A DNA stretch of 64,000 bases from Simiduia sp. 21SJ11W-1 (GTDB lineage: Bacteria > Pseudomonadota > Gammaproteobacteria > Pseudomonadales > Cellvibrionaceae): positions 3,770,001 through 3,834,000 of the forward strand of contig NZ_CP090959.1 of NCBI RefSeq assembly GCF_024138675.1, given 5' to 3'. The notes beneath the pieces were generated by a model. The model saw only the letters and a list, made by a program, of their open reading frames with translations. It had not been told where the DNA came from and made no database searches. Below, in pieces: positions 41,591 through 59,500 of the stretch (its first letter is position 1; every line of letters begins with the position of its first letter). Made by a program: the position numbers and the translations under genes.

Positions 41591-41795
41591 TGAAAATCCC
41601 CTTGTAGTCCAATAGCCAAACCTGGCCGAAAGGCCGCATTATAGCCACAAAGCCTGCCCGGCGGAAACCACAACCCCATAGACGAACGCCAGCCAGATGC
41701 GTATCATGCGCCCACTTAACGCCCGCCCGAAACGCCTAGCGCGTAAGGTATAGAGCGAAAGCCGTGAGCGACCCTGTGCGACACAGTATCGCACT
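41591..41795 (+). other. Spacer between cytochrome c5 and the tRNA-Arg leader repeats
   Basis: Presumably holds the cytochrome c5 promoter on the minus strand. I see no gene or clear repeat in it. Confidence 0.4.
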
Positions 41796-42004
41796 AAAAA
41801 GTTTAAGCACCCGTAGCTCAGCCGGGCTGCGATCAGCCGGGTGTAGCCGGAACCAGCGAAGCACTGCTTCGCCCGGCGAAACGGCTGGCAGCTATGCTGA
41901 CAGACCGGCCCCAACACCTGAGTGCTGGGGAGCGCGTAGCGGTCTATCCGTTTAGCTGAGCAGTACAGAATTACAATGTGTGAAATTGTTCCAGGTTCAC
42001 ACCG
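41796..42004 (+). repeat. tRNA-Arg leader duplication, copy 1 (209 bp)
   Basis: Begins with AAAAAGTTTAA plus the first ~17 nt of tRNA-Arg (GCACCCGTAGCTCAGC), then diverges into about 180 bp that is nearly identical to copy 2. It includes CGAAGC-ACT-GCTTCG, a near-perfect CCCCAACAC / GTGCTGGGG hairpin and the tRNA upstream sequence. It is 15 bp longer than copy 2 because of an expanded CCGGGCTGCGATCAGCCGGG section. Confidence 0.88.
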
Positions 42005-42198
42005 AAAAAGTTTAAGCACCCGTAGCTCAGCTGGGTGTAGCCGGAATCAGCGAAGCACTGCTTCGCCCGGCGAAACGGCTGGCAGCTATGCTGACAGACC
42101 GGCCCCAACACCTGAGTGTTGGGGAGCGCGTAGCGGTCTATCCGTTTAGCTGAGCAGTACAGAATTACAATGTGTGAAATTGTTCCAGGTTCACACCG
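42005..42198 (+). repeat. tRNA-Arg leader duplication, copy 2 (194 bp)
   Basis: Same organisation as copy 1, starting with AAAAAGTTTAA and a 20-nt tRNA-Arg 5' end (to CAGCTGG), then the ~175-bp block. The hairpin CCCCAACAC-CTGA-GTGTTGGGG (42103-42124) is perfect here. A third start of the unit is the real tRNA gene, which follows directly. A TACAAT at about 42165-42171 could be the tRNA -10 box. Confidence 0.9.
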
Positions 42199-42209
42199 AA
42201 AAAGTTTAA

Positions 42210-42286
<77 letters not shown>

Positions 42287-42327
42287 ATTAAAAAGCCCAC
42301 ACGCCAAAAGCGTGTGGGCTTTTTAAT
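42287..42327 (+). terminator. Terminator after tRNA-Arg
   Basis: Eighteen-base-pair perfect stem built from AAAAAGCCCACACGC and GCGTGTGGGCTTTTT with a CAAAA loop and flanking ATT/AAT. Confidence 0.93.
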
Positions 42328-42480
42328 TGGTAATGCCAAAGGCATTTGTTCGAACCCCGGGTTCGACAAATCGTCAGGAACGATTTGGACCGCAACCGCG
42401 CCGCGAAGCGGTCAGGGGCAGGACGCCCCTGAGTCAATCCCTTCTGCAATTACGCCCACACCCATTTACCTCAATTAGCA
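42313..42480 (+). repeat. Multi-hairpin repeat downstream of tRNA-Arg, copy 1 (168 bp)
   Basis: Starts with the right arm of the tRNA terminator, then five consecutive hairpins: ATGCC-AAA-GGCAT, a TTTG/TCGAAC pair with GTTCGA/CAAA (42345-42370), AAATCGT-CAGGA-ACGATTT (42368-42386), GACCGC / GCGGTC (42388-42413) and CAGGGGC-AGGAC-GCCCCTG (42413-42431). It ends with TCAATCCCTTCTGCAATTACG, reminiscent of a tRNA 3' end, and a spare terminator left arm. Confidence 0.88.
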
Positions 42481-42492
42481 TGTGGGCTTTTT
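42454..42492 (+). terminator. Second terminator-like hairpin at the junction of the two repeat copies
   Basis: GCCCACA pairs with TGTGGGC across an 18-nt loop and is followed by TTTTT, recreating a terminator where copy 1 meets copy 2. Confidence 0.55.
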
Positions 42493-42624
42493 AATTGGTA
42501 ATGCCAAAGGCATTTGTTCGAACCCCGGGTTCGACAAATCGTCAGGAACGATTTGGACCGCAACCGCGCCGCGATGCGGTCAGGGGCAGGACGCCCCTGA
42601 GTCAATCCCTTCTGCAATTACGCA
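42481..42624 (+). repeat. Multi-hairpin repeat downstream of tRNA-Arg, copy 2
   Basis: Repeats copy 1 from TGTGGGCTTTTTAATTGG with one substitution in the 14-nt loop of the fourth hairpin (GCGATGCGG for GCGAAGCGG), diverging after CTGCAATTACGC. No protein-coding character. Confidence 0.88.
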
Positions 42625-42678
42625 CCCACGCACTTATCCAAAAAAGTATCCAACCAAGACCCGCAGCCAATAACCTGA

Positions 42679-42750
42679 ACATTTCGGGGGCGCATAAATA
42701 CATCCCTGTAGCTTGTCGCCGACGTCCTGTCGGCAACACCCCGAAACATC
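42679..42750. repeat. ERIC/REP-like imperfect palindrome
   Basis: Outer arms ACATTTCGGGG and CCCCGAAACATC enclose TACATCCCTGTAGCTTG and a 6-bp hairpin GCCGAC-GTCCT-GTCGGC. This layout resembles intergenic palindromic repeats common in marine gammaproteobacteria; family not named. The rest of the stretch to the next gene has no other recognised feature. Confidence 0.6.
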
Positions 42751-42819
42751 CAGCTTATTGCCTGCTAAGTGCCATACCCAAGCACTTGGCGACAGATATA
42801 TTTTCGAGCAATGAACTAA

Positions 42820-58786: not shown

Positions 58787-59500
58787 TTAATCCTTACCAA
58801 CCCCTCTGTATTCAGCCGATTTCCTATCACCACCTCGCCCAGATGGCGAGGCTCTGCGCCCGGTCTTGGCTTCTATTTGCGCCTTAAATCGATCATCGCC
58901 TAAAACCCAGGCTTTATTGGTGGCCTCACCTATCGCTCTCACGTCGCACTCGGCCATGCGGCCACGGAATAAACCGCGGTACGCCTTTTGGCGATCTGCA
59001 TTATTTTTGCCCAGCTGGTTATAGAGAGGATGCGCCGTCAGCAACTGGATTGGCTTCCCCAATGCATTGCCCTGATAACTGGACCAAGGGTAATCAGCGG
59101 CATGGGCCACCATATTGGCGCGCACGGGGTTTAGTTCAATATAGCGGTACACCGTTAATAAATAATTATTCTCACTCACCAACGTAGATTTGTAACGGCC
59201 TTCCCACAAAGTACCCGTACGGTTGTAGGTGAAATTAAAATACTGAACATACTTTCGGCCCAATGCCTGCATCATACGGCTGACGCTTTGCTCGCTGCTA
59301 GGGGTTGCCAACAGGTGAACGTGGTTGGTCATTAACACAAACGCATGGATAGCAACATCGTACTTAGCTGCCGCATCCTTAAGAAAAGAGAGATACGCCC
59401 TGTAATCTGCTTCATCGTAAAAGCAGGCTTCGCGGTTATTACCGCGCTGGATAACATGTTGGGCACAACCGGGAAGATAGAGACGAGGTAAACGGGCCAA
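58787..59500 (-). CDS. REP-associated tyrosine transposase (RAYT, Y1_Tnp family)
   Basis: 237-residue single-strand transposase of the IS200/IS605-like Y1 group, predicted to act on the neighbouring REP-like repeats. Start chosen at TTG giving LARLPRLYLPGCAQHVIQRGNNR, because GGAGGA lies six bases upstream; an ATG seven codons earlier would place that site inside the gene. Motifs: the HUH pair is in MTNHVHLLATP, and the catalytic tyrosine is probably in GRKYVQYFN; then GTLWEGRYKS, YIELNPVRA and YPWSSYQGNALG. Flanked on both sides by REP copies in opposite orientation. Confidence 0.93.
   Translation of the reverse strand: MARLPRLYLPGCAQHVIQRGNNREACFYDEADYRAYLSFLKDAAAKYDVAIHAFVLMTNHVHLLATPSSEQSVSRMMQALGRKYVQYFNFTYNRTGTLWEGRYKSTLVSENNYLLTVYRYIELNPVRANMVAHAADYPWSSYQGNALGKPIQLLTAHPLYNQLGKNNADRQKAYRGLFRGRMAECDVRAIGEATNKAWVLGDDRFKAQIEAKTGRRASPSGRGGDRKSAEYRGVGKD

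Follow-up and report, generated by a model that had tools for sequence, protein, structure and literature searches.

The tandem element behind the tRNA-Arg(CCG) gene of Simiduia sp. 21SJ11W-1 is probably an RtT-like tRNA-trailer repeat whose T-loop carries a dispersed, apparently mobile repeat, here termed E3. Judged from the letters of the locus and from its intact counterparts in relatives, E3 is the occupant of the T-loop in a second, partial tRNA tail. The window (the whole 64,000-nt stretch of DNA that was analysed) holds two units of this composite, which arose by recent tandem duplication of the whole, and the tandem is not a chance local duplication.

A first-pass annotation had described a tandem 168-bp element of near-identical copies immediately after the tRNA-Arg terminator, and both TRF and repeat finding recovered two copies (Table 1). 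Of their 168 positions, 11 differ; the stretch from 42313 to 42455 holds a single difference, an A/T change at 42407 in the GAA loop of helix H2b. Each unit proceeds from the right arm of the terminator through an inverted copy of the tRNA acceptor/T-arm, the sequence GGGTTCGA and E3 to a decayed tRNA 3′ end. The last of these had been recognised from sequence as such, and relatives carry intact versions at that place. The reported density of hairpins also holds, as two 116-nt stretches of the window fold with z-scores of −3.3 and −3.5, values equalled by 0 and 1 of 200 shuffles, respectively.

Several of the proposed substructures required revision. The ATGCC-AAA-GGCAT hairpin and the GTTCGAAC/GGTTCGAC stem are present, but they are really the diverged inverted tRNA acceptor/T-arm and the T-loop copy. 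The GACCGC/GCGGTC stem is the minimum-energy pairing in the window copies, but it is not kept by relatives, where three of its pairs hold in 55.1% of cells compared to 86.8% for P1, 98.1% for H2a and 99.3% for H2b. A hairpin does form at the junction of the units, where a working terminator was thought to be rebuilt, but it is weak at best (−12.6 kcal/mol with a long loop, versus −29.8 kcal/mol for the original terminator) and goes unlisted by a pattern scan for loops of 3–8. The first unit is preceded by a strong terminator and the second by this weak one. When the window region was scanned with Rfam, only tRNA reached its cut-off; matches to mir-458 and Thr_leader fell below theirs, stem from the terminator hairpin and were rejected. 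A covariance model (R2) applied to the window returned, besides the two E3 copies, a single 10-bit fragment at E-values up to 5. A further palindrome lies at 42680–42755, with GTTTCGGGG-type arms around CATAAATACATCCCTGTAGCTTGTCGCCGACGTCCTGTCGGC, and similar inner sequences occur beside E3 at three other loci (L095, L096, L101).

Table 1. Features of the tRNA-Arg(CCG) locus and related loci. Positions are those of the window unless another locus is named.
Feature	Position	Strand	Basis or remark
5′ array, two 194-bp units	41833..42220	+	3 differences between copies
tRNA-Arg (CCG)	42210..42286	+	ARAGORN, Rfam tRNA
tRNA terminator hairpin, then TTTTT	42286..42328	+	fold −29.8 kcal/mol; pattern scan
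Tandem unit 1, 168 bp	42309..42476	+	TRF, repeat finding
Unit 1 diverged inverted copy of tRNA acceptor/T-arm (unit 2: 42493–42526)	42325..42358	+	sequence compared to relatives
Unit 1 GGGTTCGA, copy of 5′ half of T-arm and T-loop (unit 2: 42527–42534)	42359..42366	+	sequence; identical in relatives
Unit 1 E3 module	42367..42435	+	covariance model 79.4 bits; covariation
Unit 1 E3 helix H1	42367–42387		loop CAGGA
Unit 1 E3 helix P1	42388–42390 with 42433–42435		
Unit 1 E3 helix H2a	42391–42400		
Unit 1 E3 helix H2b	42401–42411		
Unit 1 E3 helix H3	42413–42431		loop AGGAC
Unit 1 decayed tRNA 3′ end, T-loop onward (unit 2: 42604–42622)	42436..42454	+	sequence; intact in relatives
Weak terminator-like hairpin rebuilt at junction	42454..42492	+	fold −12.6 kcal/mol; absent from pattern scan
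Tandem unit 2, 168 bp	42477..42644	+	TRF, repeat finding; 11 differences
Unit 2 E3 module	42535..42603	+	covariance model 76.4 bits
Y1_Tnp (RAYT-like) gene	59136–59467	−	repeats GATCAATAGGGTCAGAGT around gene
rsuA E3 insertion	L087 1501–1569		+23 codons in pseudouridine synthase

The E3 module is 69–70 bp in length, and the copies in the window run CAAAT...GAGTC(A). Its fold consists of H1 (loop nGGA) followed by P1, which encloses H2a, H2b and H3 (loop AnGGAn or AGGAn). The first E3 model was built from 6 of 22 modules; an initial MAFFT alignment, in which H2 and H3 of 19 modules were wrongly placed, was set aside. The larger of two alignments (A4) comprises the best 150 of 158 matches from 100 of the collected loci and contains 137 distinct sequences, in which 95.3% of pair cells are standard and all 24 pairs vary on both sides. 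A smaller set of 33 distinct sequences has 97.1% standard pair cells, with 22 of 24 pairs varying on both sides. The covariation scores are 0.666 for the larger set (0.158 when shuffled, at most 0.071 when slid) and 0.582 for the smaller one (0.156 and at most 0.081), and the fitting of these alignments to the structure biases them in its favour, although hardly to such a degree. The loops behave in the opposite manner: whereas the stems vary by covariation, the GGA is nearly invariant, being kept in the H1 loop of 132, the H3 loop of 131 and both loops of 126 of the 137 sequences. In 133 of 137, the ANGGAN loop of H3 is closed by a C-G pair. The stems also contain 58 G-U compared to 28 A-C combinations (a fraction of 0.67, bootstrap interval 0.54–0.81), an excess that is a modest sign of selection as RNA on the strand of E3.

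Homologues are abundant. Of 58 genomes, counting its own, 17 have a BLASTN match to part of the unit, and within the family the E3 model finds the module in 115 of 144 genomes, representing 29 of 32 genera. Five family genomes carry 12, 34, 123, 108 and 20 copies, and E3 is present in 69 of the 299 genomes of a sample of the phylum (E-value 1e-4). A degenerate sequence pattern matched 29 stretches in named genomes, which belong to Teredinibacter, Marinagarivorans, Endobugula, another Cellvibrionaceae genome, Paraglaciecola, Alteromonas, Aestuariibacter, other Alteromonadaceae and Lysobacter, along with one gammaproteobacterial bin. The same pattern matched no viral contig, and the window units matched no plasmid or phage record; carriage of E3 by such elements is rejected on account of these absent matches.

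The module is strongly associated with tRNA genes. Of all 62 E3 hits in the genus, counted over four genomes, 33 have a tRNA or tmRNA gene on the same strand no more than 600 nt away, where 0.4 would be expected under random placement with an assumed 45 isolated tRNA genes in each genome. This count omits four hits beside a tRNA gene on the opposite strand and includes two that are identical in sequence (G001 C4:420636 and C5:9105). The first-pass annotation had asked what fraction of matches follow tRNA genes: 29 of the 62 hits are on the 3′ side of a tRNA or tmRNA gene, and the remaining four of the 33 are in D-loop copies before tRNA-Ser(GGA). When hits are merged into clusters within 2 kb, 22 of 39 clusters adjoin a tRNA or tmRNA gene on its strand. 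The neighbours in the genus include the tRNAs for Arg, Ala, Phe, Pro, Ser, Asp/Val, Leu/Cys and Met as well as tmRNA. Homologues, covariation and this proximity thus support the proposal of a structured, selected or recently copied element associated with tRNA 3′ ends. They also answer the concern raised with it that a lack of homologues or of covariation in the stems would argue for chance.

However, the association with tRNA ends is not exclusive. Copies of E3 reside within REP-like inverted repeats (L078, L083, L088, L093) and within other palindromes (L094, L095, L096, L099, L101), and others are located at about 420 and 775 nt from a 5S rRNA gene of the opposite strand. Head-to-tail arrays of E3 without tRNA parts exist in two genomes (G001, G133). 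A protein gene, rsuA (RsuA model, 316.5 bits with a cut-off of 275), is cleanly interrupted in two genomes by 69 bp of E3 directly after CGA with the reading frame kept. This is a single event common to both genomes, and the site is uninterrupted in 10 other aligned genomes. More generally, the two bases to the left of E3 are GA at 98 of 143 places, with CA next (19). Because copies mostly follow GA, the T-loop sequence TTCGA^ATCC is a favoured site. Among open-access titles and the opening lines of abstracts, none names such a module or its dispersal.

Some additional placements deserve mention. At one locus of the window's own genome (L098 1501–1573), E3 exactly fills the gap between two genes, from the stop codon of the first to the start codon of the second, such that its AAGGA loop is located about where a ribosome-binding site would be. 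Five Lysobacter loci (L131, L137, L138, L144, L148) carry E3 in larger palindromic repeats without tRNA, and several Lysobacter copies are near a TTTTGGTTAC...GTAACCCGC motif.

The tyrT operon of E. coli is the best-known home of RtT RNA. In the K-12 sequence, rttR of the tyrTV operon has the order of parts seen in the composite: an inverted tRNA 3′ arm with UGAGA, a T-loop copy AAGGUUCGA, several hairpins, among them CCCGAAGGG, and then AUCC...CCA of the tRNA. As in the window, the repeats are in tandem behind a tRNA, and the unit includes the 3′ end of the upstream tRNA, which is decayed in the window and intact in its relatives. In contrast to RtT, the window copies have TTCGAA in place of TGAGA, contain the GGA-looped E3, lie behind a terminator and end in a decayed tRNA. 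The original report is that of Bosl and Kersten (1991), as cited in PMC4986893, and one later account (PMC7657543) places the UGAGA or tandem GA of the inverted arm opposite the T-loop copy.

The Rfam model for RtT (RF00391, gathering cut-off 45) scores four E. coli units at 132.9–137.5 bits. Below the cut-off are the tRNA-Ser(GGA) and tRNA-Tyr loci of the same genome as the window (41.2 and 39.6 bits), two further loci (L240, 29.4 bits; L100, 26.7 bits), and a locus scoring 16 bits with an E-value of 0.61 (L026) that has parts in a like order with UGAGA, a T-loop copy and a CCA end. Among 11 loci from outside E. coli, seven gave no RtT match at E-values up to 0.5, and in a set of 38 relatives, 11 were matched at an E-value of 0.01 with four passing the cut-off. 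The tRNA-Pro locus of one genome (G003) is matched by both RF00391 (30.3) and the E3 model (72.1). Of 97 E3 places on the 3′ side of a tRNA, 38 have TGAGA in the 50 nt before E3, compared to two of 38 places without tRNA, and the motif is absent in the window; the 97 among 143 E3 places is itself a biased rate, as the loci were mostly fetched as best matches. The window copies are not matched by RF00391 at E-values up to 5, nor in a search of their own genome, and on these grounds we describe the element as having an RtT-like architecture without assigning it to that family. The association of RtT with several tRNAs is in itself not new.

Composites of this kind are not confined to tRNA-Arg(CCG) in this genome. 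Eight of its tRNA and tmRNA genes, out of 40 examined, namely Ser(GCT), Ala(GGC), Leu(TAA), Ser(GGA), Tyr(GTA), Leu(CAG), tmRNA and Phe, are followed by a copy of their own 3′ end with scores of 14–19; none of 800 shuffled controls scored higher than 13. Leu(GAG) and the Arg(CCG) gene of the window, with its decayed copy, score 12, where the 99% control level is 11, and the composite of Arg(ACG) was recognised by eye. An inverted copy exceeds the shuffled maximum of 13 for one of the 40 genes, Leu(TAA) with 14, and Ser(GCT) and Tyr tie at the maximum. The T-loop modules share their hairpin order in part and not their sequence, and those of Ser(GCT), Ser(GGA), Arg(ACG), Leu(TAA) and Tyr are missing GGA loop pairs. 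Tandem composites with other modules are located behind Ser(GCT), Leu(TAA), Arg(ACG) and Leu(GAG) (L213, L220, L225, L228).

We propose that E3 inserts as a unit and would be moved in trans by a putative enzyme, although a search for such an enzyme found none, and the genomes compared include no insertion caught in the act. Behind tRNA genes, E3 would be tolerated in that the interruption affects the duplicated tail alone. Where tRNA and unit share a transcript, as is probable for rttR in E. coli and for the tRNA-Trp/secE arrangement in Alteromonadaceae, tRNA processing would release a small RNA. In the latter, the composite is situated between tRNA-Trp and secE (the identity of secE was tested in L126) and no terminator is visible between tRNA and composite, so the two should be cotranscribed. 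The units in the window lie behind a strong terminator and have decayed tRNA-derived arms, so it is probable that they are passengers with weak expression and not a functioning RNA gene. The E3 family may be functional elsewhere.

The conserved loops raise the alternative of E3 as a regulatory RNA, which would arise as a by-product when tRNAs are processed, titrate CsrA/RsmA by means of its two GGA hairpins and be maintained by selection for this function. The CsrA consensus corresponds to a loop of the ANGGAN type, which the C-G-closed loop of H3 resembles. GGA in a hairpin loop, usually present in pairs, is also given as the CsrA motif in PMC4333381, and paired hairpins with GGA loops are a feature that E3 shares with the CsrB and RsmZ sRNAs and with TwoAYGGAY (RF01731). 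The several GGA-loop hairpins expected of a CsrA-titrating sRNA are present as two per module, invariant loops on variable stems, in the great majority of sequences; the excess of G-U over A-C and the terminator-free Alteromonadaceae arrangement also fit. CsrA binding of E3 is accordingly a reasonable prediction from its loops. Titration as the reason for the existence of the element nevertheless seems rather unlikely to us. The five T-loop modules of this genome that are missing GGA loop pairs weaken CsrA as an account of all such modules, the GGA loops could equally be read by the factor that moves E3, and a terminator precedes the copies in the window. Neither the window nor L029 is matched by an Rfam Csr/Rsm family or TwoAYGGAY, L026 has only a far sub-cut-off match to CsrC, and E3 is, unlike CsrB and RsmZ, a dispersed module.

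Movement by known kinds of element was also considered. The composites might be scars of attachment sites, or minimal integrative elements, of integrases that target tRNA genes and cross over in the T-loop. A restored tRNA 3′ end upstream and a displaced one downstream would resemble the two sides of an integration, and tandem arrays exist. We judge this improbable, because no integrase is present within the composite, phages, plasmids and viral contigs yielded no match, and E3 also occurs in a protein gene and in repeats without a tRNA identity block. REP repeats and Rickettsia palindromic elements (RPE) are, like E3, short, palindromic and dispersed, and RPE are sometimes found in frame in protein genes. 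Such in-frame residence of RPE is noted in PMC3733652. E3 could by this likeness be a repeat of REP type for which a RAYT (Y1) transposase is the mover, or else a retroelement moved by a reverse transcriptase, and its occurrence inside REP-like inverted repeats and the presence of Y1_Tnp genes in 13 of 14 genomes searched are in line with this. However, E3 has a four-hairpin fold where REP has one, is strongly linked to tRNA genes, and has no GTAG or CGTC tag at its ends in the window modules and borders examined. It flanks none of 20 fetched Y1_Tnp loci, so a RAYT link in cis is rejected; the repeat adjoining the Y1_Tnp gene of the window differs from E3. One genome with 34 E3 copies (G028) has no Y1_Tnp match, and RVT_1 is absent from four E3 carriers (G000, G028, G105, G115). 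This origin is very improbable, and RAYT or an RVT_1 reverse transcriptase is unlikely to be the mover of E3, although a distant transposase acting in trans is possible.

The least probable explanation, which we consider to have almost no chance of being correct, is a chance local duplication or a replication slip, in which a switch of template between the T-arm hairpin and the terminator hairpin would have left an inverted triplication. Such a switch would produce a sense-inverted-sense order around two hairpins, and the inverted arms may indeed derive from it. Such a slip cannot yield a common, covarying E3 in 115 of 144 genomes or copies away from tRNAs. As an origin of E3 it is refuted by distribution and covariation, a refutation that is limited to E3 and does not extend to the inverted arms.

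Returning to the RtT-like reading, we tentatively entertain a broader form of it in which all RtT-type repeats would be places where dispersed structured modules of one proteobacteria-wide family reside in a T- or D-loop, E. coli tyrT would be one special case, and the GGA-looped E3 would be a CsrA-binding module delivered via tRNA transcripts. One genome carries the same composite behind several tRNAs and tmRNA with exchangeable modules, one of which is exactly inserted in a protein gene, and these two properties make the origin of RtT testable. The composites also point to a source of small RNAs that are set free when tRNAs are processed. Should the GGA loops bind CsrA, a global regulator would be rewired by dispersed repeats.

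The 5′ side of tRNA-Arg(CCG) is a mirror image of its 3′ side. Each unit of the array there contains the 5′ portion of the tRNA as far as the D-loop, a different structured module, an inverted D-arm and the leader, and upstream copies of the tRNA 5′ part are present for three of the 40 genes examined in this genome (Arg(CCG), Ser(GGA) and Leu(CAG)). The array is probably transcribed as a long leader, to judge from a promoter-like site at 41679–41707 before it. Sites of this kind are no commoner than in shuffles (1 versus 0.8), and this one draws its weight from identical hexamers before the tRNA in G003, where they are directly upstream, and in G001. The number of array copies in the four genus genomes is 0, 1, 2 and 4. 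Modules like the one in the D-loop are centred in long inverted repeats away from tRNA at four loci of another genome (L035, L042, L044 and L046 of G029).
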